A stretch of 64,000 bases of DNA from Trileptium ribeirensis (Eukaryota; Nematoda; Enoplea; Enoplida; Thoracostomopsidae), in the NCBI GenBank assembly GCA_030248225.1, contig JASANE010027917.1:1-64000 (forward strand). Reading direction: 5' to 3'. Shown here in pieces: positions 9,067 to 40,740 of the stretch. The position numbers and the translations under genes are program-made. The number at the start of each line of letters is the position of its first letter. Within the stretch, counting starts at the first letter, position 1. Under the pieces are notes generated by a model. That model did not search any database. It was not told the origin of the DNA and saw only the letters and a program-made list of their open reading frames with translations.

Positions 9067-9273
9067 GAGCGACACCGATACCGGTAATACCAATGCAAAC
9101 CGGTATGAATTACCAGCAACCGATGCAACCATACTAAGACAAGCAGACAAGCGGGAATGCAACAACCGATACTGCAAACCATGCAACCGATGCAAGTACC
9201 GCAAATGAATTGGCACCAACAACAAAGAATGCCAGCACCGACGGCAAACCAATAGCAACAGAACCGACAAACG

Positions 9274-13083: not shown

Positions 13084-13713
13084 ATGACAAGAAAGTTTTT
13101 CTGGCCGACCATGACCGGCGACCTACGACAATATATAGAAGAATATATTCCTTATGCCCGATTTCGTCAAGGACCGAAAAAAAGAAACCCGCTTCAACCG
13201 ATCAAAGGCCTAGCACCATTCCACATGCTAGGCATCGTCATTGGACCATTACCACCAACCCAATCCGGCAACAATTATATCATCTGTTTTATAGATTACT
13301 CCACGAAATGGCCCGAAGTGTTCGCAGTACCAGACCAAACAGCAACGCGATAGCCATCGACATCATTGGACCATTACCACCAACCCAATCCGGCAACAAG
13401 TATATATATCATCTGTTTCATAGATTACTTCACGAAATGGCCCGAATCGTTCGCAGTACCAGACCAAACAGCCAACACGATAACCAAACTTTTCATCGAA
13501 AGAATTGTGTGTCGACATGGAGTCCCTCGCGTAGTAATAACCGACCAAGGCCCTTGTTTCACTGCTGAGAACTTTACGAAAGAATTGGCACAAATTGGAA
13601 CAAAGAAAGTGTACTCAGCCCCATATCATCATCAAGCAAATGGACTGGTTGAAAGATGGACCCAAACACTCAAGGCGATGCTCAAACAAACAACAGAATT
13701 AACTACTGACTAG
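13084..13713 (+). pseudogene. Gypsy copy 1: integrase core, truncated
   Basis: DDE integrase blocks are visible: FFWPTMTGDLRQYIE, the CxxC position (here YIPYAR, so the first Cys of CIPCAR is Tyr), FIDYFTKWPESFAVPDQT, RHGVPRVVITDQGPCFTAENF with the second Asp, and HHQANGLVERWTQTLKAML with the catalytic Glu. A 125-bp tandem duplication (13230-13486) repeats the first-Asp block. In the first unit the Asp is Val and in the second it is Asp. The frame ends at TAG 13711-13713 and everything downstream (integrase C-terminus, PHD finger) is missing. The junction at 13705-13735 contains a short piece (tcggtagtggaact) resembling the 5' end of the repeat at 44209. The copy is dead. Confidence 0.8.
13230..13486 (+). 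repeat. 125-bp tandem duplication inside the integrase
   Basis: The block beginning attggaccattaccacc and ending in the codons for VPDQTA occurs twice, with its marker words 125 bp apart (13241 and 13366). The two units differ at a few bases. The inverted-repeat Gypsy copies have one unit only, so this is a local duplication. Confidence 0.75.
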
Positions 13714-13859
13714 TCGGTAGTGGAACTGGGAAGGTAACAAGGGCCGGTTGAATGGGAAAGAAATAAAACCGGAACGGTAGCGTCAGTGGTAGACGCAGTC
13801 TGGACGAAGGTGGTAAATGGTGATGAAAGAAATGAAAGATGGGAAGGTAACCGAGATAA

Positions 13860-15236
13860 AAACAGATAGGGAATGAACTCAAGAGGCAAAGTTAAGGGCT
13901 TCGGCCTGTGGTGTTTAGGGTTCACCGCTGAAAAGGAGGCATTACAAGTGGTATGGCATCGCTGGCACTGTCCTGGAATGGTTCCATCTTACCTTACTGA
14001 TCGTAGACGATTTCTCTTTGAACAGGATATGATTCCTCGTGGACTGAGGTTTCAAGTGGCGTTCCTAGGGCTCCGTTCTCGGTCCATTCGGATGTTTGTC
14101 GTTTTTGTAATGATATTGACAATTATGTTTCCGGGGCGATATTTAGGTATGCTGACGATTTGAAACTTGCACGTCGAGATTATTAAAACATCGAATGAAT
14201 GCTTTTTCGACGCAATGCAAGCAGATTTAGATGGTTTGTCGGCCTTCTGCGACGACTGAACTTGAATGTAAATTGTAATAAATGTCATGTGATGCTTTCG
14301 GATATGATAATCCTAGGGTAGCCTATTCTCTATGTAATAACCTGCTGCATATATCGACGCGAGAACTTGATCTTGGAGTTGTGGTTTGCGATAACCTGAA
14401 ATTTTCGGAGCACTGTAGCAGAGTTACTCGGAAAGCGTTTGTCATAATTAATATTTTGCGGCGTACTATTCAACTCTGGACTAAAAAAGTTTGGCTGAAC
14501 CTCTATCGTTTCCTTGTCAGGCCCACGTCGAATATGCTATGAGTGCTTGGTCACCATGTCTCTTGCGAGATATTGCTGCCATTGAACGGGTCCGAAGAGT
14601 TGCCACCAAAGTTGATACCGTCTATTCGACACATGACCTACCACGATCAACTCCAATTTCTTATACTTCAAACACTCCAGACTCGGCGACTTCGGAGCGA
14701 TCTAATCTGTCTATACAAAACGTTTCATGGTGACATCGATTTGTCAACATCACCTTTTTATTTTGTTCCCGGATGCGAACAGACGCGAGGCCATAATTTT
14801 AAAACTGAGACGATAGACATTCCCAGGATGGATTTGCGGCGTCAATTTTTTAGCCATAGAGTGGTCCGTTTTTGGACATCTACGCTGGGATGTCGTAATG
14901 CTTTAGCATAGAGTGGTCCGTTTGGACGATCTACGCTGGGATCTCGTAAATGCTTTAGCCATAGAGTGGTCCGTTTTTGGAACAATCTACGCTGGGATGT
15001 CGTAAATGCTTTAGCCATAGAGTGGTCCGTTTTTGGAACAATCTACGCTGGGATGTCGTAAATGCTTTAGCCATACAGTCGTCCGTTTTTCGGAACAATC
15101 TACGCTGGGATGTCGTAAATGCTTTAGCCATAGAGTGGTCCGTTTTTGGACAGATCTACGCTGGGATGTCGTAAATGCGACAACCCTGTCATCTTTCAAG
15201 CGACGGTTGCATGCGTCTAATGTACTTCCTGTTTAA
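13860..15236 (+). pseudogene. 5'-truncated CR1-like LINE reverse transcriptase, copy A
   Basis: This is a more decayed version of the LINE in the inverted-repeat arms (26940-28236). It retains pieces of the RT: the 'GIAGTVLEWF...YLTDRR' block near 13965-14010, VNCNKCHVM (about 14270), RELDLGVVVCDNLKFSEHCSR, the MSAWSPCLLRD block and FKRRLHASNVLPV at the end. The central SSGVPQGSVLGP and YADD blocks are disrupted by indels. The end of the ORF is displaced by a 56-bp minisatellite (14851-15176). It is joined directly to the truncated Gypsy copy. The class (CR1/Jockey-like) is inferred from the RT blocks; no endonuclease is present. Confidence 0.75.
14851..15176 (+). repeat. 56-bp minisatellite in LINE copy A
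   Basis: About six units of a sequence marked by 'tagagtggtccg', 'tttttgga' and 'ctgggatgtcgtaaatg' follow one another, each about 51-56 bp, with marker positions near 14858, 14909, 14963, 15018, 15074 and 15131. The unit is part of the LINE coding end (HRVVRFWNNLRWDVVNAL). Because 56 is not a multiple of three, each unit shifts the reading frame. Homologous arrays occur at 18622-18955 and 27893-28175. Confidence 0.85.
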
Positions 15237-18562: not shown

Positions 18563-19904
18563 TTAAACAGGAAGTACATTAGACGCATGCAACCGTCGCT
18601 TGAAAGATGACAGGGTTGTCGCATTTACGACATCCCAGCGTAGATTGTTCCAAAAACGGACCACTCTATGGCTAAAGCATTTACGACATCCCAGCGTAGA
18701 TTGTTCCAAAAACGGACCACTCTATGGCTAAAGCATTTACGACATCCCAGCGTAGATTGTTCCAAAAACGGACCACTCTATGGCTAAAGCATTTACGACA
18801 TCCCAGCGTAGATTGTTCCAAAAACGGACCACTCTATGGCTAAAGCATTTACGACATCCCAGCGTAGATTGTTCCAAAAACGGACCACTCTATGGCTAAA
18901 GCATTTACGACATCCCAGCGTAGATTGTTCCAAAAACGGACCACTCTATGGCTAAAAAATTGACGCCGCAAATCCATCCTGGGAATGTCTATCGTCTCAG
19001 TTTTAAAATTATGGCCTCGCGTCTGTTCGCATCCGGGAACAAAATAAAGTGATGTTGACAAATCGATGTCACCATGAAACGTTTTGTATAGACAGATTAG
19101 ATCGCCCCGAAGTCGCCGAGTCTGGAGTGTTTGAAGTATAAGAAATTGGAGTCGATCGTGGTAGGTCATGTGTCGAATAGACGGTATCAACTTTGTGGCA
19201 ACTCTTTGGACCCGTTCAATGGCAGCAATATCTCGCAAGAGACATGGTGACCAAGCACTCATAGCATATTCGACGTGGGCCTGACAAGGAAACGATAGAG
19301 GTTCAGCCAAACTTTTTTTAGTCCAGAGTTGAATAGTACGCCGCAAAATATTAATTATGACAAACGCTTTCCGAGTAACTCTGCTACAGTGCTCCGAAAA
19401 TTTCAGGTTATCGCAAACCACAACTCCAAGATCAAGTTCTCGTGTTGATATATGCAGCAGGTTATTACATAGAGAATAGGCTACCCTAGGATTATCATAT
19501 CCGAAATGCATCACATGACATTTATTACAATTTACATTCATGTTCCAGTCGTCGCAGAAGGCCGACAAACCATCTAAATCTGCTTGCATTGCGTCGAAAA
19601 AGCATTCATTCGATGTTTTAATAACTCGACGTGCAAGTTTCAAATCGTCAGCATACTTAAATATCGCCCCGGAAACATAATTGTCAATATCATTTACAAA
19701 AACGACAAACATCAATGGACCTAGAACGGAGCCCTGAGGAACGCCACTTGAAACCTCAGTCCACGAGGAATCATACCCGTTCAAAGAGACAAATTGTCTA
19801 CGATCAGTAAGGTAACTACGGAACCATTCCAGGACAGTGCCAGCGATGCCATACAAACTCATCTTGTAATGCCTCCTTTTCAGTGGTGAACCCCTAAACA
19901 CCAC
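18563..19904 (-). pseudogene. CR1-like LINE reverse transcriptase, left arm
   Basis: On the minus strand one frame of 351 codons (19904 to 18849) covers the RT C-terminal half: LYGIAGTVLEWFRSYLTDRR, SSGVPQGSVLGPLMFVVFVND, the intact catalytic box KYADDLKL, VNCNKCHVMHFG, RELDLGVVV, MSAWSPCLLRD and HRVVRFWNNL. RT would copy element RNA at the target site. The frame is open only because two indels compensate: a homopolymer of seven T (19313-19319 area) shifts the frame and a family-wide missing base near 19280 shifts it back. The residues between (SLAEPLSFPCQA) are therefore out of frame. A 56-bp minisatellite then separates the frame from the true end (FKRRLHASNVLPV, stop at 18563). No endonuclease or ORF1 remains, so the copy is 5'-truncated and dead. 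Confidence 0.85.
18622..18955 (-). repeat. 56-bp minisatellite, left arm
   Basis: Six units of the 56-bp repeat (markers 'cggaccactcta' at about 18656, 18712, 18769, 18825, 18881, 18937), more homogeneous than in copy A. The uniform spacing of 56 bp suggests recent expansion. Confidence 0.9.
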
Positions 19905-20770
19905 AGGCCGAAGCCCTTAACTTTGCCTCTTGAGTTCATTCCCGTATCTGTTTTTATCTCGGTTACCTTCCCATCTTTCATTTCTTTCATCACCATTTAC
20001 CACCTTCGTCCAGACTGCGTCTACCACTGACGCTACCGTTCCGGTTTTTATTTCTTTCATTCAACCGGCCCTTGTTACCTTCCCGATTTACTTCATTCAC
20101 TTCCGTCCCTGTTTTATTTCTTGTTTTGCAAACCTTCCCGATTTACTCTTCTTTGTTTGTGACCTGGTTCTTCGGACTTGCGGTCTCCCCCCAGAATTTT
20201 GAAATAAAAGCCTGAAAACATAGAAAATGTGATTAGACAATACACATTAATAACACAACAATTATTAACAAAAAATATAACACTATTTTTGTTTAGCAAA
20301 TTTGGGTTTTCTTCTTTGGACTGCACTAGGCAGAGTTATTTTTGGCACTATTATTATAGCTATTATTATGTCGTCCTTTTGGTCTAGAATGGGGTCCGTA
20401 GCGACAATGATCGTCTCTGTCAATCGTAGGGTTAAGATTCAATGTTTGAGATCACTGGCGTTTATTCGGGGCGACGGAGCTCGACGTCGTTGGGACAATT
20501 ATCACCGATTTCGTAATGTACCGGTTCTTTGGTCGATTGTCGTCTATCACCGAATCCTTTCGGTTTTGATTCTATTGTAGTTCCGTGGTCGGTTTATAGC
20601 ATTCCGGAATAGATTCTTTATTCGGTCCTGTCGTCGTCATTCCGAATCCGTTGGCCTTTGTCCTTCGTTGATTCCGTTCCGGTTCCCATCTTGTTGATCA
20701 TTTTAGGTCGGCATGAGTTCTGGGATCCCAGTGCCCCGGTCCTCTCTTCCCTCATTATTTGCCTTCCTGA
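19905..20770 (-). other. Gypsy 3' untranslated and LTR-like region, left arm
   Basis: Between the LINE and the Gypsy PHD tail. It contains a segment resembling 2425-2462 of the probable LTR (gaacccctaaacaccacaggccgaagccc at 19885-19915). No supported coding frame. Matches 26075-26935 on the right arm. Confidence 0.45.
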
Positions 20771-21250
20771 TCAACTAAGATTTGGTGAAGAAGTGACGTC
20801 CGAACGGCTCACCACCTCCTCCACCTCGAATTTTGTTGTTCTTTTGAACACCGATTGTGGATTTAGGGTCCTTTCGTTCACCGATTGTTGATTTCGAATT
20901 ATTTTTGATCGATTTGTCGTTGTTTTTCGGGTCGCTTTTCGTTTGCTGGTCTGTTTTCGCTCATTCCTGCATTGTTCAGCCCTGGCTCCGTATGTGTGGT
21001 CATGTACCACTCCATGTAGAATATGTTCTTGCGTTGTGTAAATTTTGATGCATGGGGGACTATACCACAGGGCTTCTAGAGGATCATCTTCCAATTCTAC
21101 GCATGCCTGGTGATACCACAAAAACATCTGTCGCATTGTACCCATTTGATAATAAGCCCAGTTTCGTTATCTTCTTTCCATGAGCCCATGCATTTTCCAC
21201 AATAATAGTCCTCGGGGCTAATCGTTGGCGTGATTCTTTTTGAACGCCCT
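20771..21250 (-). pseudogene. Gypsy PHD-finger C-terminus, left arm
   Basis: The minus strand reads EDYYCGKCMGSW...VQCDRCF in one frame and LWYHQACVELEDDPLEALWY in another, followed by a basic tail rich in Lys/Arg/Thr that ends at 20771. It is the mirror copy of 25600-26074. The same one-base frame change after CDRCF and the same Ser in place of the seventh zinc-ligand Cys are present in both arms, so they predate the duplication. See the right-arm entry for the domain argument. Here an additional stop lies just before the finger (near 21255). Confidence 0.7.
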
Positions 21251-23216
21251 TAGTTAAGCTTCGTAAACTGCGTAATCTTCCAGATCACCACCGAAATGTT
21301 TCAATTGTGTGCAGTTGTACCATTTTGGATGTTGAGTTGCGCTACCGACCTTCACTAATAAGATATTCGGGAATTTAACTTCGACCACGCGGAAAAGTCG
21401 ATCGAACTCCGGATGATAGACGCTGCTATAGGGGCCCATCGATGATTTATTTGGGTTCTTTATTAAGACTAGGTCACCGTTGTTAAACGTTCTTTTCTTT
21501 GCTCTCCGATCGAAATACTGTTTGTACTGGTTTTGTGCTAACAATAGTCTTTTTCTTACTCGTTCCCATGCTACTGTTAATCTATCGATCAATTATGGGG
21601 CGTATCCATCATCTGTGGTTGCCGTTAAGAATCCATGAATCGGGTTTTCTCCAGGTAGATCGGGATTACGGCCATGTAGAAGGAAGAATGGGGTTTGGCC
21701 TGTTGAAGCGTGGACCGCTGTTCTGTATGCGAAGCACAACGGCTCCAGGAATTCGTCCCATTTGCCAGGAGTTAATTCTGTTGTTGGTTTGAGCATCGCC
21801 TTGAGTGTTTGGTTCCATTGTCAACTGTCCATTTGCTTGGTGATCATATAGGGCTGAGTACACTTTCTTTATTCGAATTTGTGCCAATTCTTTCGTAAAG
21901 TTCTCGGCAGTGAAGCAAGGGCCTTGGTCGGTTAGTACTACGCGATGGATTCCATGTCGACACACGATTCTTTCGATAAATAATTTAGTAATCGTCGTTG
22001 CCGTTTGATCGTGTACTGCGAACGCTTCGTGCCATTTCGTGAAATAGTCCATGAAACAAATGATGTAGATACTTGTTACCGGATTGAGTTTGTGGTAAGG
22101 GTCCATTGATGTCGATGCCTAGCATGTGGAATGGTGCTAGGGCCTTGATCGTTTGAAGCGGGTTTCTTCGTTTGGGTCCTTGTTGAAATCGAGCACACGG
22201 AATACATTCTATGTATTGTCGTAGGTCGCGGGTCATGCTCGGCCAGAAAAACTTTCTCGTGATTTTCGACCATACTTCTCGAATCCCAAGCGTCCTCCGT
22301 ACTTTGACGTGTGGTACATTTCGAATAGTGGTCGTCGGAAGTCGGGAGGTAACACAATCTGGAATTCCCATGGTTCGGTTTGTTGTGGCCGATCTTTTCT
22401 TCGTAGCCTGTACAGGATGTCGCCGAAGATGATGAATTGCTGTTCATATGCCACAATCCATTTCTTTTCGAATTCGGGTGTAGTATCCAGGAATTCGTTA
22501 TGCTCGATGTAGTGCTTCAACGAGTGGATACATTGGTCTTCGTTTTGTGCGCGCGCGAGTTCTTCTGGTGCCCATGGTGATTCCAATCTGAAATATTGTG
22601 ACTACATCTCGGCCTCGGCTATTTCGGGTTCTTCAGGTGCGTTTGGTTGGTTCAATTCTTCATCTGATTCTAATCTTTCCTCCTGTCGTTCCTTTAGTTC
22701 CAATATTTGGTCCGTTTCTATCAATGGTTCCACTCGGACTTTTCTTTTTGATCGCTTTTGATGTTGTGATATTGGTTGTTCGGTTTGTTTTTCGTCATCA
22801 AGGAGTTTAAGTATACTGTCTTCTTCTGAAGTTTCGCCCGTGGTTTCAATTGGTTGTTCGTCTTCATCGCTATCGTTACTAAGTGTTATCATGTTTCTGG
22901 TCGATCGAGTCTTTTCCTTGTTCTTTCTCTTTCCCACTTGATCTTTTATTGGGTTCGTTCTTTATTCGATCCTTCTTTTGACTTTGCGGATCTGTCTTCC
23001 GATAAGGTCGTACTTCTTTCGTCCGCCACTGGTCACTAATTCTTTGCCTCTTCCCGTTTCGTTTTGGCTTCTGATATCGGACCACTGTCCGTCTTCTCCT
23101 GCTAACTTATCTTTTCGAAAGATACTCAGAGCATTCTCATCCACCGCAGCATCGAACTCTCGTCCTCCTCGATCTCCAGTCTCCCTCACGGCCCATACAC
23201 ACACCAACAAGCACAA
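21251..23216 (-). pseudogene. Gypsy linker and integrase, left arm
   Basis: Reading leftward on the minus strand: a charged linker (DGQWSDIRSQNETGRGKEL, from about 23216), LLDDEKQTEQPISQHQKRSKRK, the acidic stretch, the H2C2 zinc region with CIPCARFQQGPKRRNPL, FMDYFTKWHEAFAV, VLTDQGPCFTAENF, then FAYRTAVHASTGQTPF and the C-terminal VRKRLLLAQNQYKQYFDRRA with FRVVEVKFPNILLVKVG. Integrase would insert element cDNA into chromosomes. The catalytic-Glu block (NGLVERW in copy 1) is lost to a small deletion here. The copy starts inside the linker, so RT and RNase H are absent. Mirror of the right arm. Confidence 0.8.
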
Positions 23217-24041
23217 GAAGGAAGTCAGTCAAGGACAGAGGAAACCCACAAGCTCGATACCCAAAACCAAGAACAACACCCAGATGGATATCCTTATCCG
23301 TACAGGCCATTTATCCTGTACACCGAAATAAGGAAGCATGGTATCGGATATATTCTATCCCAAGAAGACGAAACGGGAAACGAACATGTGATGCACTATG
23401 GCAGCCACAAGTACCGCGACGAAGAAACCCGATACTCGATAACGGAACATGAATGCCTGGCAGTAATCCGCGCGATTCAACACTTTCGGCCGTACTTATT
23501 GTGAAATCTTACAATGATCATCACGGACCATGCACCGTTGGTCCAGATCTTCAATAAGAATCGACCGTTGGAACAAATGACCGTGCGATTGGCACGAATG
23601 GCGAACAAGATCCTCGAGTACGAGTATACAATCGTATACAAACCAGGACGATACCACCAAAATGCGGAGTGCATGCCACGACCACCAGTAGTCCCTGGAA
23701 CCGAAAGAAGTACGACCTTATCGGGAAGACAAATCCGCAAAGTGAAACCAAAAGAAGGATCCGAATAAAGAACGAACCCAATAGGAAAACAAAGATCAAG
23801 TGGGATCAAGAGAAAGAACAAGGAACAAAAAGTATCCGATCTGCGGTGGATCGCGACCAGAAACATCTTTGATAACAAGGATACAAGTTCAGCCAACGCA
23901 AGGAGAAACGATAGCGATGAAGCACGAACAACCAATTGAAACCACGGGCGAAAAAAGAGCTTATCGAAGACAGATCGAAAGTAAAAGAGCTTCAGAAGAA
24001 GACAGTACACGATAAAAAAAATAAACCCCCCCCCCCCCTCC
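22804..24041. other. Spacer at the centre of the inverted repeat
   Basis: About 1.2 kb separates the strictly matched arms. It is not unrelated sequence: 22804-23210 (minus) is Gypsy linker and 23284-24041 (plus) is RNase H plus linker, so two unequal Gypsy fragments diverge from about 23210-23284. In the plus copy the linker is rearranged, and a run of about 14 C (24026-24039) lies exactly where arm identity resumes. Confidence 0.7.
23284..23768 (+). pseudogene. Gypsy RNase H, right copy
   Basis: The plus strand reads YPYPYRPFI, then GIGYILSQEDETGNEH, ETRYSITEHECLAVIRAI, ITDHAPLVQIFNKNRPLEQM and EYEYTIVYKPGRYHQNAECM, the same order as 11570-11960. The TDH block is intact here. The LYTDAS-type block reads LYTEIRK, so the first catalytic Asp is not preserved. 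A stop near 23504 breaks it after FRPYLL. It starts abruptly, so RT and everything before are missing. Confidence 0.75.
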
Positions 24042-25254
24042 TTGATGACGAAAAACAAACCGAACAACCAATATCACAACATCAAAAGCGATCAAAAAGA
24101 AAAGTCCGAGTGGAACCATTGATAGAAACGGACCAAATATTGGAACTAAAGGAACGACAGGAGGAAAGATTAGAATCAGATGAAGAATTGAACCAACCAA
24201 ACGCACCTGAAGAACCCGAAATAGCCGAGGCCGAGATGTACTCACAATATTTCAGATTGGAATCACCATGGGCACCAGAAGAACTCGCGCGCGCACAAAA
24301 CGAAGACCAATGTATCCACTCGTTGAAGCACTACATCGAGCATAACGAATTCCTGGATACTACACCCGAATTCGAAAAGAAATGGATTGTGGCATATGAA
24401 CAGCAATTCATCATCTTCGGCGACATCCTGTACAGGCTACGAAGAAAAGATCGGCCACAACAAACCGAACCATGGGAATTCCAGATTGTGTTACCTCCCG
24501 ACTTCCGACGACCACTATTCGAAATGTACCACACGTCAAAGTACGGAGGACGCTTGGGATTCGAGAAAGTATGGTCGAAAATCACGAGAAAGTTTTTCTG
24601 GCCGAGCATGACCCGCGACCTACGACAATACATAGAATGTATTCCGTGTGCTCGATTTCAACAAGGACCCAAACGAAGAAACCCGCTTCAAACGATCAAG
24701 GCCCTAGCACCATTCCACATGCTAGGCATCGACATCAATGGACCCTTACCACAAACTCAATCCGGTAACAAGTATCTACATCATTTGTTTCATGGACTAT
24801 TTCACGAAATGGCACGAAGCGTTCGCAGTACACGATCAAACGGCAACGACGATTACTAAATTATTTATCGAAAGAATCGTGTGTCGACATGGAATCCATC
24901 GCGTAGTACTAACCGACCAAGGCCCTTGCTTCACTGCCGAGAACTTTACGAAAGAATTGGCACAAATTCGAATAAAGAAAGTGTACTCAGCCCTATATGA
25001 TCACCAAGCAAATGGACAGTTGACAATGGAACCAAACACTCAAGGCGATGCTCAAACCAACAACAGAATTAACTCCTGGCAAATGGGACGAATTCCTGGA
25101 GCCGTTGTGCTTCGCATACAGAACAGCGGTCCACGCTTCAACAGGCCAAACCCCATTCTTCCTTCTACATGGCCGTAATCCCGATCTACCTGGAGAAAAC
25201 CCAATTCATGTATTCTTAACGGCAACCACAGATAAAGGATATGCCCACAATTGA
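23936..25254 (+). pseudogene. Gypsy linker and integrase, right arm
   Basis: One frame of 307 codons (23936-24859) carries the acidic/basic linker and the integrase N-terminus: LPPDFRRPLFEMYHTSKYGG, FFWPSMTRDLRQYIE, CIPCARFQQGPKRRN, FHMLGIDINGPLP with the first Asp. The next frame (24738-25178) continues with ICFMDYFTKWHEAF and LTDQGPCFTAENF with the second Asp, and 25048-25254 gives WDEFLEPLCFAYRTAVHAST. The Glu block is disrupted (NGQLTMEPNT where copy 1 has NGLVERWTQT). The HHCC domain has Arg in place of the second His (GGRLG), as in copy 1. It continues at 25251 into the C-terminal domain and PHD finger. Confidence 0.85.
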
Positions 25255-26074
25255 TCGATAGATTAACAGTAGCATGGGAACGAGTACGAAAAAGACTATT
25301 CATAGCACAAAACCAGTACAAGCAGTATTTCGACCGGAGAGCAAAGAAAAGAACGTTTAACAGCGGCGACCTAGTCTTAATGAAGAGCCCAAATAAATCA
25401 TCGATGAGCCCCTATAACAGTGTCTATCATCTGGAGTTCGATCGACTTTTCCGCGTGGTCGAAGTCAAATTCCCGAATATCTTATTAGTGAAGGTCGGTA
25501 GTGCAACTCAACGTCCAAAATGGTACAACTGCACACAATTCAAACATTTCGGTGGTGATCCGGAAGATTACACAGGTTACGAAGCCAAACTAAGGCGTGT
25601 TCAAAAAGAATCACGCCAACGATTAGCCCCAGAAGATTATTACTGCGGAAAATGCAAAGGGTCATGGAAAGAAGATAACGAAACTGGGCTTATTATCAAA
25701 TGGGTACAATGCGACAGATGTTTTTGTGGTATCACCAGGCATGCGTAGAATTGGAAGATGATCCTCTAGAAGCCCTGTGGTATAGTCCCCCATGCATCAA
25801 AATTTACACAACGCAAGAACATATTCTACATGGAGTGGTACATGACCACACATACGGAGCCAGGGCTGAACAATGCAGGAATGAGCGAAAACGGACCAGC
25901 AAACGAAAAGCGACCCGAAAAACAACGACAAATCGATCAAAAATAATTCGAAATCAACAATCGGTGAACGAAAGGACCCTAAATCCACAATCGGTGTTCA
26001 AAAGAACAACAAAATTCGAGGTGGAGGAGGTGGTGAGCCGTTCGGACGTCACTTCTTCACCAAATCTTAGTTGA
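25251..26074 (+). pseudogene. Gypsy integrase C-terminus with PHD finger, right arm
   Basis: From 25251 the frame gives VRKRLFIAQNQYKQYFDRRA, FNSGDLVLMKSP and FRVVEVKFPNILLVKVG, the GPY/F-like integrase C-terminus. It is followed by a C4-H-C3 zinc pattern: Cys codons at 25644 and 25653, then 25710 and 25719 (CDRC), then after a one-base frame change His 25733 and Cys 25742, and finally WYSPPC with Cys at 25793. Spacing CX2C-X18-CX2C-X4-H-X2-C-X13-(S)-X2-C and the Trp before the last pair are those of a PHD finger. The seventh ligand is Ser. PHD fingers bind histone H3 tails; here it would sit where chromoviruses carry a chromodomain, so integration targeting is a reasonable guess. A basic tail rich in Lys/Arg follows to 26074. 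Confidence 0.75.
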
Positions 26075-26939: not shown

Positions 26940-28236
26940 GTGGTGTTTAGGGGTTCACCACTGAAAAGGAGGCATTACAAGATGAGTTTGTATGGCATCG
27001 CTGGCACTGTCCTGGAATGGTTCCGTAGTTACCTTACTGATCGTAGACAATTTGTCTCTTTGAACGGGTATGATTCCTCGTGGACTGAGGTTTCAAGTGG
27101 CGTTCCTCAGGGCTCCGTTCTAGGTCCATTGATGTTTGTCGTTTTTGTAAATGATATTGACAATTATGTTTCCGGGGCGATATTTAAGTATGCTGACGAT
27201 TTGAAACTTGCACGTCGAGTTATTAAAACATCGAATGAATGCTTTTTCGACGCAATGCAAGCAGATTTAGATGGTTTGTCGGCCTTCTGCGACGACTGGA
27301 ACATGAATGTAAATTGTAATAAATGTCATGTGATGCATTTCGGATATGATAATCCTAGGGTAGCCTATTCTCTATGTAATAACCTGCTGCATATATCAAC
27401 ACGAGAACTTGATCTTGGAGTTGTGGTTTGCGATAACCTGAAATTTTCGGAGCACTGTAGCAGAGTTACTCGGAAAGCGTTTGTCATAATTAATATTTTG
27501 CGGCGTACTATTCAACTCTGGACTAAAAAAGTTTGGCTGAACCTCTATCGTTTCCTTGTCAGGCCCACGTCGAATATGCTATGAGTGCTTGGTCACCATG
27601 TCTCTTGCGAGATATTGCTGCCATTGAACGGGTCCAAAGAGTTGCCACAAAGTTGATACCGTCTATTCGACACATGACCTACCACGATCGACTCCAATTT
27701 CTTATACTTCAAACACTCCAGACTCGGCGACTTCGGGGCGATCTAATCTGTCTATACAAAACGTTTCATGGTGACATCGATTTGTCAACATCACTTTATT
27801 TTGTTCCCGGATGCGAACAGACGCGAGGCCATAATTTTAAAACTGAGACGATAGACATTCCCAGGATGGATTTGCGGCGTCAATTTTTTAGCCATAGAGT
27901 GGTCCGTTTTTGGAACAATCTACGCTGGGATGTCGTAAATGCTTTAGCCATAGAGTGGTCCGTTTTGGGAACAATCTACGCTGGGATGTCGTAAATGCTT
28001 TAGCCATAGAGTGGTCCGTTTTTGGAACAATCTACAAAGCTGGGATGTCGTAAATGCTTTAGCCATAGAGTGGTCCGTTTTTGGAACAATCTACGAAAAA
28101 GACTGGGATGTCGTAAATGCTTTAGCCATAGAGTGGTCCGTTTTTGGAACAATCTACGCTGGGATGTCGTAAATGCGACAACCCTGTCATCTTTCAAGCG
28201 ACGGTTGCATGCGTCTAATGTACTTCCTGTTTAAAG
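26940..28236 (+). pseudogene. CR1-like LINE reverse transcriptase, right arm
   Basis: The frame at 26940-27584 holds LYGIAGTVLEWFRSYLTDRR, SSGVPQGSVLGPLMFVVF and the intact KYADDLKL box; it stops at 27584 because one base is missing near 27566. The frame at 27533-27994 then carries the remaining C-terminus (MSAWSPCLLRDIAAIERV, HMTYHDRLQFLILQTLQTRR, HRVVRFWNNL). A minisatellite and the end FKRRLHASNVLPV follow. The base missing near 27566 is shared with both other copies, so it was already present in the source. The start is a 5' truncation inside the RT. Confidence 0.85.
27893..28175 (+). repeat. 56-bp minisatellite, right arm
   Basis: Five units (markers at about 27896, 27952, 28008, 28067, 28126). 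Units three and four carry insertions of 3 and 5-6 bases (ctacaaagctggg, ctacgaaaaagactggg) not seen in the left arm, so the arrays have diverged since the arm duplication. Confidence 0.9.
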
Positions 28237-33312: not shown

Positions 33313-33611
33313 GAAGAGAAACAGCTAACTATTTAGCTGTTTCGGATTCGCTTAGTTAGCTAGATGTTTTGCATAAAATTGGTGGGCGGTTTTTGTTGGC
33401 GCTTTTGAGAACATTGTTATATAATTGGTTTTTCGTGACAATAAGTTTTAGTTACGATTTTAGCTCACAGTGTGTGGTCGTTTTCGTTTTTGGTGGATTG
33501 TTCTCCTTTGCATTCAGGTAAAAATAAATAGTTTGTCTTGACATAGTCGTTTTTCTGGAATTGTTCAAGTTTGTTGAACAATTCTCGTCTTAAAATTGTA
33601 CATTTTCGACA
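33313..33611 (+). mobile_element. BEL element 5' LTR
   Basis: From agaaacagctaactattt (33318 on) to ...ttttcgaca (33611) it is almost identical to 40442-40740; I count two differences in the aligned part (aagtttta versus aagggtta near 33449). The first four bases TGTC of the 3' LTR are not present here, so the 5' edge is damaged. The LTR ends ACA, as usual for TG...CA ends. Near-identity implies a recent insertion. Confidence 0.9.
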
Positions 33612-33629
33612 TGGTCCTTCGGACCTCAT
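33612..33629 (+). promoter_or_regulatory. BEL primer-binding-site candidate
   Basis: Directly after the LTR comes tggtccttcggacctcat. It starts with TGG, complementary to the CCA end of a tRNA, and contains the palindrome ggtccttcggacc. The tRNA was not identified. Confidence 0.5.
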
Positions 33630-33693
33630 CAAATTTCATTAAATTTCTAATATTATTCGAACCAGTTTCGTACTAGTTGAGCCTCATTTTGCA

Positions 33694-36600
33694 ATGGATC
33701 CCAAGGTATTCACTTTACGTAGAAAACAGAAGAATGGGTTTCTAACTAATGCAAAACGTGAACTTACTAAGGCTCAACAGCTATTGACATTAGACGTTTC
33801 TGTTGATGTAGAAGAACTTGAGCATTGCAGAAATAAGCTCGTATCGTATCGTGCACAGTTAAAAACACTGGACGAGGAAATTTTACCAGAATTTGAGGAC
33901 ACTCAACTAACAGATGAAATACAAAAGTCACTGGATTTCGATGACACTTTACTAGATTATATAGAAAAATTGTCTATTCGTATCAATAAATGCGAACGAA
34001 CCGCAAACTTTATTGTTCAAACTTCGACCGCTCATGAGTCATGTGTTACCGACAAATACCAAGCGTCTATTCGACTTCCAAAACTTCAACTCGATCAGTT
34101 TGATGGAAATGCGCTGAACTTTCAGCATTTTTGGGATAACTTTGAGAATTCTATTCACAAAAATGATTCGTTATCCGAGATTGACAAATTTACCTACCTA
34201 CGGTCATTTTTGACCGGGGAGGCTCTTAGATTAATTGAAGGCTATCGACTGACAGCTGCTAATTATCAAGCGGTTGTCGCTGTATTGCAAGAGCGTTATG
34301 GTGACCCGCAAGTGGCGGTATTTTCCCATTTTGAAGCAATGCTAGCACTTCAGCCAGCAACGCATGATATCGGCCAATTGAGGTTAGTATACGATGAATG
34401 CGAAAAACACATTCGTTGTCTAGTTGCTCTGGGCTTACCGGAGGAAACTTTTGGTCAGGTATTTACTCCTATTGTTCTTTCGAAGCTTCCTAAGTTTGTT
34501 AAGATGGAGCTTCATCGTAGTAACGGGTTTAAAAAATGGACTCTTGCTAATCTTCGTGATCTTTTGAAGGAAGAGATTCATGCCCGCGACATGTCTGAGA
34601 GATCGTTTGGGTCTAATGGTAAGTCGGACAAGGTCCACAATGTATCGAATGAGAAGACAGTAACTAATCATAAAAGTCGCAAGCCGTTTCGTGTTGAAAC
34701 GACAACTTCAGCCCTAGTTACTCCATCATCTGAGTCAAAAATGAAGTGCTCATATTGCAACGAAGCTCACTACAGCGATCAATGTTCTGTGTATCCGGAC
34801 GTCAAATCTCGACGGGCAAGGTTAGCTAACAAGTGCTTGCTATGTCTTAATACAGGTCATCGAATCAAAGATTGTCGAAGTCGCCGCACATGTGTGCATT
34901 GTCAACGCCCTGGTCATCATCGTAGCTTGTGCCAAGCTAAATTTGGCAACAAATCCGCAATTAAACCAAGTTTTCAGAGTTTGTCCGCGAACAACAAAAT
35001 TGTATCGCTCAATGCTGATGGCAATTCTTCGCAAGATCCAGTAGAGGATGTGGTCGTCACGAATATGTTGTCACATGGTCAACAATCGATATTGCAAACA
35101 GCCGTCACTCAAATAATTGGTTCGAAACATTCAGTAGCTCGCCTACTTCTAGATACTGGTTGTTCGAGATCTTTCATTACGACGGAGATGAGCCGGAAAA
35201 TCGGCGCGCGTCGCGTTGGTAACGAAATGATTGCGATTTCGGGATTTGGTGATACTGTTCGAAAAACTCAATCCTACCCAACATTCGAATTTGAGGTTGC
35301 CCTCCGTGATGGCAGTTGTAAAACGTTGACAGTAAATGCAATCGACTGCATCAGTTGCCCGGTCCAAAAGGTAGCTCTTGATTGCGCAAAGCATCCTTTT
35401 ATTGAAAAGTTAAGCCTTGCAGAGCCTCTATCTACAGTCAATCAAATGGTTCATATTGATGTACTTATCGGAGCGGACTACTATTACGATTTTGTGGGTC
35501 ACGAACAAATTAGAATTTCTGATGGGCTTATTTTTCTATCTTCGTCTCTTGGATACATAGCGACAGGTCGTCTCGAACAGAGCACGTCATGCTCTAACAA
35601 GGTGAATGCAATGTTGCTAAGTCGGTCAAGTGTGTTGCCCGAAAGCAACTTCGAACTAGAAAAATTTTGGCGGCTCGAAGACATCGGGATAAAGGATGTG
35701 GCTGATTTGGAAGAAGATGAAGTAGCAATCCATCAATTTAACGAAACAATTGAATACGGCGATGGGCGATATGCTGTGAAATGGCCATGGAGAAATGATG
35801 GTTCGGATCTCGGAGAAAACTATGGCTTGTCGATTGGTCGTCTCAAGTCATTACTACGACGATTGGACGTGAATCCAGCATTGAAGGAAAAGTACGATGA
35901 AATCATACAAAATCAGTTACAGAGTCAAATTATTGAGCATGCTCCGTCGGAACCTGATGGTGACAAGCTGTACTATATGCCACATCATTGTGTCGTGACT
36001 CCACAAAAGACAACGACAAAAATTCGTATTGTTTACGATGCTTCAAGCAAATGTAACTCAAAGACGCGAAGTCTAAATGAATGTGTTCTTCGTGGACCGG
36101 TCTTACTGGCGGACATGTGTGGCCTGATTATACGATTTCGATTATCAAACATTGCTGCCGTAAGCGACATTGAGAAAGCATTTCTGCAAATCAGGCTGCA
36201 GAAACCAGATCGGGATGTCACACGCTTCCTCTGGCTTCGAGACATTTCAAAGCCTATTTCGGAAGAAAACTTGGTCACACTTCGATTTTGTCGGGTTCCC
36301 TTTGGTGTTAATGCAAGTCCATTCTTACTCGCTGGCACTGTCACATATCATCTGAATTCTATTGGTTCGTCGGTGGCCAAAAACATTTTGGAAAATGTTT
36401 ATGTCGACAATGTAATTGGTGGATGTTCAACATCTTCGGAATTGGTAGAATATTATACAGAGGCCAAGACTATCTTCAGAGCGGCATCCATGAATCTTCG
36501 AGAATGGTATTCAAATGATACATCTTTCATGGAGAATCTTCCAGCTAACGATCGTGGTAACGGCTCAAAAACAAAAGTATTGGGCATTTGTTGGGATATT

Positions 36601-38439
36601 ATTTCAGATACCCTCAGTTGTACCGTTGGACATTCTGTAAATGCAATCGTGTCGACAAAGCGACAACTATTGAAAATAATCGCTTCCGTTTTCGACCCCT
36701 GCGGATATTTTTCGCCAGTGACGATCCGTGGTAAACAATTGCTACAAGAAATTTGGAAAGCAAAATATGGATGGGATGACGTTTTGCCGGCTGATATCTT
36801 GAATACATGGGATGTATATCGGCAAGATTTGGTTCGTATAGTCGAACATAAATTTAATCGTCAGTATTGCCAGAATGCTTTGGAAGATGGAAACACATTC
36901 GATTTGCATTGCTTTTGCGATGCTTCGGCTAAAGCTTTCACAGCTGCTATTTACCTAAGCGTGGTAAAACCCGGTCAAACAACATCGAGTCTAGTCTTTT
37001 GTAAAGCCCGGGTTAGCCCACTCAAAACAATTTCGATTCCTCGACTAGAACTGGTAGCGGTTACGATTGGTACTAGACTTATTGATTTTGTCGAAAAACA
37101 GCTACAACTTTCGATTCGATCAAGATATGTGTGGTCCGATTCTCAATGTGCGCTTCATTGGATTCTGGGGAAAACTGTTTCTTCTGTTTTCGTCCGCAAT
37201 CGAGTTCGACAAATCAGATCCAACGTCAAACTAAAATTTCGGTATGTTCCTACAGAAGAAAACCCAGCCGACATGGCTTCACGAGGTACAAGTTTTCAGA
37301 GTTTGTCTGAGAACGTCATGTGGTGGCATGGCCCCTCTTGGTTAAAAGCAGCCGAATCAGTCTGGCCAAAGATGAACTTATCGAGTAAAATGCCTGAAGA
37401 TCAGAAGGTGGAAGAAGCAAGGCACCAGCCTCAACAACTGGTCCTGTCAACTGATACTGTTATAGACATACAGCGTTATTCGTCATTGCAATATTTAGTT
37501 AGAGTTAATGCTTGGGTGTTGCGATTTGTCTCGGTAATTTTGCGAAGAAAGGGACCAACAAAAACTTTGGCGGAAGTAGAAATTTCGCATTCGTTAATGA
37601 CTTTGATTAAGTTTGTGCAGAACGCCACTTTTGGTCATTTGTTTGTTTCCAACTTTGACTCTCAGCCAATGGTAAAATCATTAAAGTTGTTCGTCGATAA
37701 AGACGGAATCATTCGATGTCGTAGTCGGTTTCAAAATTCGAATATTAGCGAGAATACAAAATTTCCCATTCTTCTTCCCCGACACAATCACTTTACAACA
37801 CTCGTTATCATGGATTGTCATGAAAAGTTGCACCACTGCGGAATTCAACACACTTTGTCTCAACTACGTCTTGTCTACTGGGTTGCACAAGGAAGAGCTG
37901 AGGTGAAACGGTGCCTAAATACCTGCCGTATTTGTCGACGGCATCAGGGTGGGCCATTTAATGTTCCTGATGCTCCTCCTCTTCCGGAATTCCGTGTAAC
38001 GCAACAGATTCCTTTTAGTTGTGTAGGCATTGACTATCTTGGTCCCTTATTGATTCGTGTAGAGGCTAATGAAACGAAAAAAATCTGGATTTGTCTCTTC
38101 ACGTGCGCTGTTGTTCGAGCAATTCACTTAGAAATTGTTGGTGATTTATCGGCTGCAGAATTTCTCTTATGCTTTCGGCGTTTTATGGCAATATTCGGTT
38201 GTCCTAAAATTGTTATTTCGGATAATGCAAAGCATCTTCACCTCTCCCGGAAAACTATAGATCGTCTTTGGACTGATTTACTCGAGACTGCTGGTGTGCA
38301 GGACTTCTTGGCAACTCGAGGTATCGCGTGGAAATTTATTGTTGAAAAGGCTCCTTGGATGGGAGGATTCTACGAAAGGTTAGTAGCTCTGGTTAAGAAT
38401 GCTCTCAAAAAACAATACATGGTCGAAAACTTAACTTAA
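33694..38439 (+). CDS. BEL/Pao gag-pol polyprotein, main frame (1581 codons)
   Basis: Domains in order: Pao-type gag (about residues 126-290, LPKLQLDQFDGNALNFQHFW), three CCHC knuckles (about 352-412: CSYCNEAHYSDQC, CLLCLNTGHRIKDC, CVHCQRPGHHRSLC), protease with LLDTG (D487), RT with DIEKAFLQIRL, LRFCRVPFGVNASPF and the catalytic box YVDN (903-906), the A17/RNase H region with FCDASAKAF (D1076) and SIPRLELVA, the integrase zinc domain (HEKLHH near 1376, C...CRIC near 1408-1415), and the core D1447, D1510, E1561 with IDYLGPLL, ISDNAK and GGFYERL. This order and the long D-to-E spacing mark BEL/Pao. YVDN has Asn where Asp is usual; I recall some Pao lineages with Asn there, so it need not be dead. 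The frame ends at TAA 38437-38439, one base out of step with the next frame, so one base was probably lost. Confidence 0.93.
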   Translation: MDPKVFTLRRKQKNGFLTNAKRELTKAQQLLTLDVSVDVEELEHCRNKLVSYRAQLKTLDEEILPEFEDTQLTDEIQKSLDFDDTLLDYIEKLSIRINKCERTANFIVQTSTAHESCVTDKYQASIRLPKLQLDQFDGNALNFQHFWDNFENSIHKNDSLSEIDKFTYLRSFLTGEALRLIEGYRLTAANYQAVVAVLQERYGDPQVAVFSHFEAMLALQPATHDIGQLRLVYDECEKHIRCLVALGLPEETFGQVFTPIVLSKLPKFVKMELHRSNGFKKWTLANLRDLLKEEIHARDMSERSFGSNGKSDKVHNVSNEKTVTNHKSRKPFRVETTTSALVTPSSESKMKCSYCNEAHYSDQCSVYPDVKSRRARLANKCLLCLNTGHRIKDCRSRRTCVHCQRPGHHRSLCQAKFGNKSAIKPSFQSLSANNKIVSLNADGNSSQDPVEDVVVTNMLSHGQQSILQTAVTQIIGSKHSVARLLLDTGCSRSFITTEMSRKIGARRVGNEMIAISGFGDTVRKTQSYPTFEFEVALRDGSCKTLTVNAIDCISCPVQKVALDCAKHPFIEKLSLAEPLSTVNQMVHIDVLIGADYYYDFVGHEQIRISDGLIFLSSSLGYIATGRLEQSTSCSNKVNAMLLSRSSVLPESNFELEKFWRLEDIGIKDVADLEEDEVAIHQFNETIEYGDGRYAVKWPWRNDGSDLGENYGLSIGRLKSLLRRLDVNPALKEKYDEIIQNQLQSQIIEHAPSEPDGDKLYYMPHHCVVTPQKTTTKIRIVYDASSKCNSKTRSLNECVLRGPVLLADMCGLIIRFRLSNIAAVSDIEKAFLQIRLQKPDRDVTRFLWLRDISKPISEENLVTLRFCRVPFGVNASPFLLAGTVTYHLNSIGSSVAKNILENVYVDNVIGGCSTSSELVEYYTEAKTIFRAASMNLREWYSNDTSFMENLPANDRGNGSKTKVLGICWDIISDTLSCTVGHSVNAIVSTKRQLLKIIASVFDPCGYFSPVTIRGKQLLQEIWKAKYGWDDVLPADILNTWDVYRQDLVRIVEHKFNRQYCQNALEDGNTFDLHCFCDASAKAFTAAIYLSVVKPGQTTSSLVFCKARVSPLKTISIPRLELVAVTIGTRLIDFVEKQLQLSIRSRYVWSDSQCALHWILGKTVSSVFVRNRVRQIRSNVKLKFRYVPTEENPADMASRGTSFQSLSENVMWWHGPSWLKAAESVWPKMNLSSKMPEDQKVEEARHQPQQLVLSTDTVIDIQRYSSLQYLVRVNAWVLRFVSVILRRKGPTKTLAEVEISHSLMTLIKFVQNATFGHLFVSNFDSQPMVKSLKLFVDKDGIIRCRSRFQNSNISENTKFPILLPRHNHFTTLVIMDCHEKLHHCGIQHTLSQLRLVYWVAQGRAEVKRCLNTCRICRRHQGGPFNVPDAPPLPEFRVTQQIPFSCVGIDYLGPLLIRVEANETKKIWICLFTCAVVRAIHLEIVGDLSAAEFLLCFRRFMAIFGCPKIVISDNAKHLHLSRKTIDRLWTDLLETAGVQDFLATRGIAWKFIVEKAPWMGGFYERLVALVKNALKKQYMVENLT

Positions 38440-38453
38440 CAGAACTACAAACA

Positions 38454-39050
38454 GTGGTGGTTGAAATAGCTGGTACGCTGAATACCAGACCTCTGGTGTA
38501 CGTTGGAGATGACGTCTCTGATGTGGCATTGACACCAGCCCATTTCTTGTTACGTTCCGGACCCAAATTCCCATCGATTATTCCCGACGATGAAGAGTTC
38601 CGTCTGCAACCGTCATCAGGTGCGTCGTTGATCCTGCAATGGCGGCGCCTTCAGGCTGTTCTTGCTTCGTTTTGGGACGTCTGGTACAATAGTTACTTAC
38701 CAGGCCTTCGCGAACAGTGGCGGTCTAAAAGACAGCGTGGTACTGGTGCATTCATTCCTCAACCAGGCACTGTTGTCCTAATCAAGAGGGATTTACCTCG
38801 ATCACGTTGGAACATGGGTATCATTGTACACCTTATTTTTAGTCGTGATCGAGTTTGTCGATCAGCTAAACTTCGTTTGGCAAGCGGTAAAACAATGAAT
38901 CGCCCACTTAAAGATCTATATCCGCTAGAATATTCTGAATCGAGTTCTCTCGACAAACCATCAAGTTCCGTGTCTAGATCAGATAGACCGCCGACTCGCT
39001 TCGCTGCCAAGCAAGCCGGTGAAAAAATTAGATTGAACTTGAACAATTGA
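38454..39050 (+). CDS. BEL/Pao integrase C-terminus in a shifted frame
   Basis: This frame continues the integrase without a gap: VVVEIAGTLNTRPLVYV, VALTPAHFLLRSG, then RRLQAVLASFWDVWYNSYLPGLREQ and TVVLIKRDLPRSRWNMGII, the DUF5641-like C-terminus typical of BEL/Pao integrases. The same frame is open upstream to about 38425 (KLNLTELQ), which overlaps the end of the 1581-codon frame. No canonical slippery heptamer is seen at the overlap, so a one-base deletion is likelier than programmed frameshifting. The frame closes at TGA 39048-39050. The copy therefore would not make full integrase unless the ribosome shifts. Confidence 0.88.
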   Translation: MVVEIAGTLNTRPLVYVGDDVSDVALTPAHFLLRSGPKFPSIIPDDEEFRLQPSSGASLILQWRRLQAVLASFWDVWYNSYLPGLREQWRSKRQRGTGAFIPQPGTVVLIKRDLPRSRWNMGIIVHLIFSRDRVCRSAKLRLASGKTMNRPLKDLYPLEYSESSSLDKPSSSVSRSDRPPTRFAAKQAGEKIRLNLNN

Positions 39051-39127
39051 ATTCGTTGTATCGTATTCGTTAATTGCGAACAATTGTGAAACTTAATTGT
39101 GTTGTTGATCATAACTTAATTTGTTGG

Positions 39128-39235
39128 TGTCAGAAACAGCTTGCTATTTAGCTATTTTGGATTCACGCGGTTAGCTAGATATTTTACATATAATTGGTGG
39201 GCGGTCATTTGTTGGTGATTTTGTTATATTTTTGT
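39128..39235 (+). repeat. Internal U3-like fragment inside the BEL element
   Basis: The stretch tgtcagaaacagcttgctattt... matches the first ~100 bp of the 3' LTR (40442 on): shared words are tgtcagaaacagct, ctatttagct, gttagctagat, attttacat/ttttgcat and aattggtgggcggt. It is more diverged (roughly one difference per seven bases by eye) than the terminal LTRs are from each other. It lies directly upstream of the third ORF. Confidence 0.8.
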
Positions 39236-40413
39236 TATCCTTTACCTTTAGACTGTTTATTATGTCAACCACTACCTACATAACTGGTGATCATTGTTTG
39301 TCGCGATTCTATTCTAATTGGGTTTTAATGCAAAACAATGAGGTAATAAATTCAATTGAATTTGGATATTGGACAGTGATGTTGCGGCAACATAACAGAG
39401 ATGATCTATTGTCAGAGCTTAGAGCAGCTACAGCAATCGTTGACAACCCAGGCAACATTGCTCATTGGCTTAAAACAAAGCGATTTGAACTATCTGCCCA
39501 TTGGATAATGTCATCAGACTATGTCTACCACAATGTGCTTAGTCACCAACTGGAACAACCAAATACGCCGTTTTACAAAGCCTTTCATAGCCAGATTCCA
39601 GCTGCTGATCAACTCGCGAACCACAAGTTTGTTGTGTGTTCATCGCAGCAAGAGTACATCTGGTCATGCGGATTACGTCGATCTGCGGCTCAAAAGGTTG
39701 CGAGCTATCCTGGTTTCAACAGATATGGTCAAATATTGTCGAATTTGGCGAAACAAGTTGTCGAAAAGGAGATAGATGGTTCGTCAATCATGTCTCTAGC
39801 ATCTCAAGTTTTGCCACGTGACGATTATCCTGAGTTCACAACACTGTTGGTTTCTGATAGTCAATGTCGATATATTAGCCATATTCATCGTGGCGAAATA
39901 TCAAAAGTATCCGGTGGTACATTTCGAGATATGTCGTTTGTTTTAGATTCCGTTGGCGCTCGCGGTCTGAAAACATCAGATTTTAGTATCGTAATTGTGA
40001 ACTGTGGAATTAACGATTGCCAAAGGTCAGTTGATCAGCAACATCGGGATTGGGACATGTTTATCAATACGCTCAATCAATCAGGAATCCCCTTGGATAG
40101 CGACAGAGTTTTGATATCTCCACCGTTTCCACATCCTCGAGCTCATAATTCCAGTGCCTATTCTCAATGGGTTTGTTCAAAATTGGTTGGAACTGGTATA
40201 GACGTCATTGATTGGAACGATGAAGTAAATCCGTTTACTGATGGCAATGACATTCGGCGGCACTTATTCGAAAAGGATGGCTTTCATTTAAATCACAGTG
40301 GTGTTCGGGAACTGTGGAAACTATGGTGTCGTAAACTACCTAGACTACAATTAGTCGGTTATGAGTTGGCAAGTTTGGCCTCTGGTGTAAGAAAGCGTCG
40401 TTACATGTGTTAA
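39232..40413 (+). CDS. BEL third ORF: putative SGNH/GDSL-like hydrolase
   Basis: 393 codons, between the integrase and the 3' LTR, where some BEL elements carry an env gene. I see no signal peptide or membrane segment typical of env. Instead, four blocks of the SGNH-hydrolase fold occur in order: block I LLVSDSQCRYI (Ser210; the usual GDS is SDS), block II SGGTFRDM (Gly228/229), block III NCGINDC (Asn261 in GxND) and block V KDGFHLNHSGV (His352 with Asp349 three residues before). SGNH enzymes are esterases or lipases. The N-terminal ~200 residues have no recognised domain. A second Met at codon 11 (MSTTTYITGD) may be the true start. The frame is intact and free of stops, unlike the pol frame. 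The assignment is from motifs; remote homology should be tested with profile search. Alternative: a catalytically inactive SGNH-fold RNA-binding protein (compare the OSK domain of Oskar). Confidence 0.68.
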   Translation: MLSFTFRLFIMSTTTYITGDHCLSRFYSNWVLMQNNEVINSIEFGYWTVMLRQHNRDDLLSELRAATAIVDNPGNIAHWLKTKRFELSAHWIMSSDYVYHNVLSHQLEQPNTPFYKAFHSQIPAADQLANHKFVVCSSQQEYIWSCGLRRSAAQKVASYPGFNRYGQILSNLAKQVVEKEIDGSSIMSLASQVLPRDDYPEFTTLLVSDSQCRYISHIHRGEISKVSGGTFRDMSFVLDSVGARGLKTSDFSIVIVNCGINDCQRSVDQQHRDWDMFINTLNQSGIPLDSDRVLISPPFPHPRAHNSSAYSQWVCSKLVGTGIDVIDWNDEVNPFTDGNDIRRHLFEKDGFHLNHSGVRELWKLWCRKLPRLQLVGYELASLASGVRKRRYMC

Positions 40414-40441
40414 CAGAGTGCGTTACTCCGTCGCTTGGGAG

Positions 40442-40740
40442 TGTCAGAAACAGCTAACTATTTAGCTGTTTCGGATTCGCTTAGTTAGCTAGATGTTTTG
40501 CATAAAATTGGTGGGCGGTTTTTGTTGGCGCTTTTGAGAACATTGTTATATAATTGGTTTTTCGTGACAATAAGGGTTAGTTACGATTTTAGCTCACAGT
40601 GTGTGGTCGTTTTCGTTTTTGGTGGATTGTTCTCCTTTGCATTCAGGTAAAAATAAATAGTTTGTCTTGACATAGTCGTTTTTCTGGAATTGTTCAAGTT
40701 TGTTGAACAATTCTCGTCTTAAAATTGTACATTTTCGACA
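40442..40740 (+). mobile_element. BEL element 3' LTR
   Basis: TGTCAGAAAC... to ...TTTTCGACA. 299 bp. Contains gttatataattgg (TATA-like, about 40547-40560) and aaaaataaatag (polyadenylation-like, about 40649-40660). No strong polypurine tract precedes it (cgcttgggag). No 5-bp target duplication could be matched with the damaged 5' edge. Confidence 0.93.

Follow-up and report, generated by a model that had tools for sequence, protein, structure and literature searches.

A conserved third gene of BEL/Pao retrotransposons in the nematode Trileptium ribeirensis with predicted NADAR-like and SGNH esterase domains

The window analysed here is a stretch of 64,000 nucleotides from the nematode Trileptium ribeirensis (GenBank assembly GCA_030248225.1, contig JASANE010027917.1, positions 1 to 64,000 of the forward strand). 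It contains a BEL/Pao retrotransposon of approximately 7.4 kb, spanning 33313 to 40740, in which gag and pol are followed by a third open reading frame, ORF3 (table 1). ORF3 is an old and conserved third gene that has been inherited within a diverse lineage of BEL/Pao elements, and its product very probably combines two domains, one NADAR-like and one of the SGNH esterase type.

Pao peptidase, reverse transcriptase (RT) and integrase domains lie between the long terminal repeats (LTRs) of the element (Pfam PF05380, E = 5.5e-49; PF00078; PF17921; PF18701), and the presence of Peptidase_A17, DUF1759, DUF1758, RVT_1, Integrase_H2C2 and DUF5641 bears out the BEL/Pao identity given in an original prediction, made from the DNA letters alone. 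That prediction was also right that a stop-free frame of 393 codons (39232-40413, with its first ATG at 39262) lies between the integrase and the 3' LTR, and that it stayed open in an element with a frameshifted pol, which in this copy is broken into two frames between 38439 and 38454. The LTR copies at 33317-33611 and 40446-40740 are 99.3% identical, with two adjacent mismatches in 295 aligned bases. The first four bases of the 5' LTR (33313-33316) are unlike the TGTC of the 3' LTR, despite the LTRs being 99% alike, and inspection by eye showed no target-site duplication around the element.

The length of ORF3 and its recurrence across the genome together rule out a chance frame. In 2000 first-order Markov simulations (1.2 kb each, matched composition, one strand) the longest stop-to-stop frame reached 226 codons (median 83), against the 393 observed. 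A search of the 687 Mb genome (20,229 contigs) yielded 894 first-look candidates, of which only the best were scored; this gave 105 matches, the window copy included, although a copy broken by frameshifts can yield more than one match. No internal stop was present in 74 of the 105, in which frameshifts remain possible. The search for further BEL copies with the same ORF, proposed with the original prediction, thus returned 104 additional matches, with identities of 25 to 73%. Among the 30 best loci (numbered with the prefix L where they need to be told apart), 28 have a BEL integrase and/or DUF5641 upstream on the same strand; of the remaining two, L021 begins at a contig end and cannot be judged, while L042 has no BEL pol in the 4.6 kb upstream. 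All 30 loci were picked up via ORF3 matches, and therefore they are silent on how many BEL elements lack ORF3. These matches and the upstream pol genes rule out a lone capture by the window copy; ORF3 belongs to a lineage and is no oddity of a single element.

The divergence of ORF3 follows that of pol. Across 27 loci, distances for pol (computed from integrase plus DUF5641) and for ORF3 correlate with a Mantel r of 0.90, a value reached in none of 5000 permutations (best 0.29). The Spearman coefficient is just 0.47, which we ascribe to close pairs driving r and to saturation of the deep distances. Pol averages 49% identity among loci and ORF3 32%, and the N-terminal and SGNH halves of ORF3 co-vary (r = 0.91). 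A tree built on RT plus integrase from 13 elements and one built on ORF3 from 14 have the well-supported clades in common, with deep nodes unsettled. Because BEL pol lies upstream in nearly all of the best loci and ORF3 divergence tracks it, we regard ORF3 as an inherited gene of this lineage. Both halves are under purifying selection in the two diverged pairs that could be measured, which also answers the comparison between copies suggested at the outset: the ratio of nonsynonymous to synonymous substitution rates (dN/dS) is 0.133 for the window copy and L016 (dS 1.31; 0.117 for the N-terminal half and 0.147 for the SGNH half) and 0.150 for L041 and L043 (dS 1.74; 0.201 and 0.094, respectively). 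The pair L026-L027 gave 0.103 at a saturated dS of 3.88. Two near-identical pairs point the other way, with dN/dS of 0.91 (4 changes) and 0.70 (10 changes), but numbers this small do not allow interpretation.

The original prediction recognized SGNH blocks and treated them as the sole domain; the first of these points stands, whereas a NADAR-like region at residues 20-173 of the 393-codon frame had been missed. In the window sequence this region matches Pfam NADAR with E = 0.0019, under the cut-off, and phrog_1017, a family of unknown function, with E = 0.0081, while its end matches NCBIfam TIGR02464, a YbiA-type model for a riboflavin-intermediate N-glycosidase (E = 0.042). For profile-profile comparison, a NADAR set was assembled from 11 phage records, chosen for spread among 30 listed of the 341 with a YbiA match, and one IMG/VR sequence (L002); alignment A2 combines YbiA of E. 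coli with ten NADARs from phages, L002 and L009 being excluded. Compared with A3 (20 ORF3 members), A2 gave a probability of 72 (P = 3.4e-5, 144 columns), and with A4 (21 N-terminal halves) a probability of 84 (P = 7.3e-6, 139 columns). The N-terminal half scored 38.8, whereas none of 200 column shuffles exceeded 21.7, the reversed control gave 12.2 and the SGNH half 10.9.

ORF3 positions were paired by alignment with NADAR residues described in sections of PMC11543638, where the equivalents of a Glu, a Lys and a last-strand acid are given as catalytic for one NADAR, while in another W133 and D130 contact ADP-ribose. Glu stands at the equivalent of YbiA E48 in 22 of 28 rows, an acidic residue at the D130 position in 27 of 29 and Trp at the W133 position in 21 of 29; in the Gly-x-Asn-x-x-Gly block, Asn is found in 29 of 30 and the second Gly in 30 of 30. 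By contrast, none of 29 rows has Lys at position seven after the E48-equivalent Glu, and none of 29 has Glu, Asp or His at the E125 position. A Cys adjoins the lost last-strand acid position in 20 of 29 rows. A derived NADAR fold is thus a well-supported prediction for the N-terminal half, which is probably a binding module, because most positions that contact the ligand are retained and two that serve catalysis have been lost.

In the C-terminal half, the SGNH residues of the window copy follow in order and exactly where they had been predicted (Ser210, Gly228-229, Asn261, Asp349 and His352). Pfam Lipase_GDSL_2 matches residues 252-357 with E = 1.9e-4, under its curated cut-off (22.4 versus 32.9 bits), and is matched by 15 of the 20 members, with a best E of 3.4e-8. 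When the 20-member profile was compared with the PDB, the only match below 0.1 was 4c1b, an 'ORF1-encoded protein' (E = 8.6e-5), so the proposed profile check supports the SGNH assignment, and with it the presence of an SGNH-type ORF in the envelope (env) position of a BEL element. We take 4c1b to be the structure of PMC3905857, as the code occurs in that paper and the molecule name agrees. Sections of this paper describe the esterase of the long interspersed nuclear element (LINE) ZfL2-1, with a triad of S143, D279 and H282, an oxyanion hole with G165 and N195, and the transposon-specific residues H191 and S228. Equivalents were set by eye on the ORF3-4c1b profile alignment; TesA relatives, too alike to be useful, were not used. 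Residues were counted over 32 ORF3 rows from 30 loci, 30 of the rows having letters in the SGNH region. Ser and Asn are each present in 30 of 30 rows and His in 29; the first Gly of the pair, equivalent to the oxyanion G165, is kept in 28 and the second in 24, and the S228 equivalent is Ser in 26. By these counts the core of the esterase is kept, with a variable Asp, and sequence evidence supports well the assignment of this half to the SGNH esterases, near those of retrotransposons.

Table 1. Features of the BEL/Pao element (positions in the window).
Feature	Position	Strand	Basis
5' LTR	33313..33611	+	LTR comparison
Splice-donor-like CAG|GTAA within LTR	33515..33521	+	Consensus match only
Primer-binding-site-like stretch, TGG start, abutting 5' LTR	33612..33625	+	Sequence; inferred by position
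gag-pol ORF: DUF1759, DUF1758 protease, RVT_1, Peptidase_A17, integrase zinc-binding domain (Integrase_H2C2)	33694..38439	+	ORF list, Pfam
pol end in a different frame, DUF5641	38454..39050	+	ORF list, Pfam
Internal copy of first ~97 bp of LTR, 84.5% identical	39128..39223	+	Sequence comparison
Pyrimidine-rich stretch with TTTAG end, acceptor-like, 10 bp 5' of ATG	39232..39251	+	Consensus match only
ORF3, 383 aa from ATG (open frame from 39232, 393 codons)	39262..40413	+	ORF list
NADAR-like domain, codons 20-173 of the open frame	39289..39750	+	Pfam, NCBIfam, profile-profile
SGNH esterase domain, limits approximate	39841..40311	+	Sequence, Pfam, PDB profile match
Codons of SGNH residues	Ser 39859, Gly-Gly 39913, Asn 40012, Asp 40276, His 40285	+	
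3' LTR, TGTC...GACA	40442..40740	+	LTR comparison

The relation of ORF3 to pol differs among loci. In many, ORF3 opens in a different frame after a short gap, and in some it overlaps the pol end. In L027/L054, L030/L053 and L022 it lies in the pol frame with one stop between, while one uninterrupted frame runs through gag, pol and ORF3 in L049 (2232 codons; LTRs 99.5% identical) and in L050 (2325 codons; LTRs 96.7% identical). DUF5641 and ORF3 share one frame in L055, and in L051 and L052 the pol end is joined to the ORF3 start. These joins form two clades of the tree, L049/L055 and L050/L051/L052.

Several further observations weigh against the domain assignments and have to be set against other readings. 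Just three of the 20 members match Pfam NADAR (best E = 1.4e-4), the single window sequence reached a probability of 2.7 in hhalign, and the NADAR structures 2b3w and 8bau were not listed in the profile searches of the PDB. With matches this weak for single sequences, and two catalytic positions lost, the N-terminal half could be an unrelated domain that resembles the NADAR profile by chance. This is distinctly unlikely, given a co-linear profile-profile match over 139-144 columns, well above the shuffled and reversed controls, and a YbiA-type model from a second library that matches the same region. An active NADAR-type hydrolase, stripping ADP-ribose off the nucleic acid of the element, would account for the retained equivalents of E48, D130 and W133; it seems very unlikely, since the Lys and E125 positions have both changed throughout and sections of PMC11543638 report their equivalents as catalytic. 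In the C-terminal half, the Asp three residues before the His is present in 21 of 30 rows, leaving nine without the triad Asp in its usual place, and H191 is mostly replaced (His in 6 of 30); the H191/S228 double mutant of ZfL2-1 is inactive, according to sections of PMC3905857. Such losses would suit an SGNH half that has become a non-enzymatic fold binding RNA or protein, in the manner of Oskar, which the same source gives as a non-catalytic SGNH protein. The original prediction had offered an SGNH-fold RNA-binding protein as its alternative, and this now appears less likely because Ser, Asn and His are retained; the first Gly and the S228 equivalent are largely kept as well, and retention of the nucleophile would be unexpected if the domain served for binding alone. 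We therefore hold the non-enzymatic form to be unlikely. The proposed AlphaFold modelling and fold search ran and gave no test of the fold: single-sequence models were poor (predicted local distance difference test scores, pLDDT, of 34 for the whole of ORF3 and 45.6 for the C-terminal half), and Foldseek with the latter model returned nothing below 0.001 among the best 50 of 922 matches. The G-D-S-L protein 4rw0, at rank six, had the highest probability and template modelling score among those 50, with this low-confidence model as query.

Its position behind pol and its often separate frame could make ORF3 an env-like protein, replacing an envelope and aiding the exit of particles from cells or their entry into them, and the donor- and acceptor-like splice consensus sites in the window copy (table 1) would agree with this. 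For hydropathy, a crude scan was made with a 19-residue Kyte-Doolittle mean, for which the usual threshold is 1.6. Two of the 20 A3 members exceed this value in one stretch, L032 (1.84) and L042 (1.77), both inside the domains; the other 18 lie below it, and the window protein, with a peak of 0.76, has no strongly hydrophobic stretch. Neither a transmembrane anchor nor a separate secreted product, the envelope traits looked for, was found in the hydropathy scan and the Pol fusions. That ORF3 shares the pol frame in two clades counts against an envelope, and sections of PMC5408684 argue against env roles for GDSL ORF3s. We consider the env-like reading highly improbable: the 'env position' of ORF3 is merely a location.

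Taken as a whole, the evidence leads us to favour, with some reserve, a conserved third gene of BEL/Pao elements that encodes a non-envelope accessory enzyme with SGNH and NADAR-like domains. The likeliest product is an accessory esterase that is associated with Pol and has an N-terminal module for binding nucleotides or nucleic acid; packaging, ligand and substrate are what we infer in the following. The protein would be produced beside Pol or as the C-terminal domain of Pol, and would travel with the particle. The NADAR-like half may bind an ADP-ribose-like nucleotide or a modified nucleic acid, while the SGNH half may cut an ester and so aid the action of the particle or ribonucleoprotein at membranes, a role also suggested for the esterase in the ORF1 of LINEs. 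By analogy, such a membrane or lipid role is possible, if doubtful. We give little weight to a further scheme, in which a packaged, Pol-linked cargo would use its NADAR-like half to read a mark of the ADP-ribose type, placed on protein or nucleic acid, and its SGNH half to cut an ester-linked modification, undoing a host defence by which the element is marked.

The window copy also carries an internal fragment of its LTR between pol and ORF3 (table 1), clear only in this copy among 29 loci. In the other 28, up to approximately 1500 bases behind ORF3 were compared per locus, fewer at contig ends (L020 approx. 400, L026 approx. 830), so that an LTR farther away would be missed; L042 had one AT-rich match of 29 bp and 27 had none. 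The fragment therefore looks like a later event in the subfamily of this copy and not like a trace left when ORF3 was captured, and perhaps provides a candidate second promoter.

L042 (G000:C6850:14615-15754) is, with L059, an open 390-codon relative of ORF3, and is possibly a solitary or domesticated copy. A minus-strand frame upstream of it, near Gypsy-like pieces, presumably resembles an IMPACT-type protein. Beyond this genome, 1761 candidates from 5.8 billion proteins included no relative of ORF3 at the limits applied, nor did 16 candidates when the N-terminal half alone was the query. IMG/VR, GTDB contigs, phages and plasmids, which as collections of viruses, prokaryotes and plasmids say little on other animals, gave none at the limits used, and PADLOC assigned no family. 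Elsewhere in the window, a 56-bp unit occurs on either strand in tandem repeats at 14849-15178, 18621-18956 and 27887-28176, two of the three arrays overlapping the 3' ends of LINE-like RT frames. A strong AT skew (up to 0.39) is seen at 6001-14000 and 24001-26000 over Gypsy-like frames, with the opposite sign at 20001-22000.

ORF3 is old, constrained in both halves and in the Pol frame in two clades, and it therefore appears to serve a real step in the life of the element; its many natural variants are available for testing the role of the third gene. What looks new is the fusion of NADAR with SGNH, its occurrence in BEL elements and its link to Pol. Searches of the literature, which left subscription papers, preprints and Repbase outside their range, found no paper with both BEL Pao and NADAR and no BEL case among the titles and abstract openings listed; the one paper found to contain BEL, Pao, SGNH and retrotransposon has SGNH within a reference only.

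The closest parallel in architecture comes from bdelloid rotifers, where sections of PMC5408684 describe SGNH ORF3s in Vesta and in Athena elements. Like the gene described here, that of Vesta follows pol as the third ORF of an LTR element, encodes an SGNH esterase with its SGNH residues retained and has no transmembrane domain. The same sections mention no NADAR domain for Vesta, nor does the text contain BEL or Pao as whole words; a single ORF3 of Adineta sp. 11 may combine DEDDy with GDSL, and the within-genome evolution of bdelloid enzymatic third ORFs does not deviate significantly from neutrality (PMC5408684). Among solved structures, that of ZfL2-1, of the CR1 clade, is the best match to the ORF3 profile, and the equivalents of its Ser, Gly, Asn, His and S228 are mostly retained. 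Its SGNH domain, however, belongs to the ORF1 of a non-LTR element and is accompanied by a coiled coil (PMC3905857), and its H191 is mostly replaced in ORF3. For the N-terminal half, E. coli YbiA and the DarT-associated NADARs share with ORF3 the profile, the first Glu, the Trp and the Gly-x-Asn-x-x-Gly block, and differ in having the catalytic Lys and last-strand acid or His that ORF3 lacks (sections of PMC11543638 and PMC11125620). Retroelements have taken up NADAR-type domains elsewhere, in the Pol of a Gypsy element of the brown alga Ectocarpus and in the ORF1 of oyster Tx1; these are other element classes and other positions, and the sections of PMC12477816 that describe them mention no SGNH partner. 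The occurrence of NADAR and SGNH domains in several classes of retroelement suggests that such domains have been traded among them.
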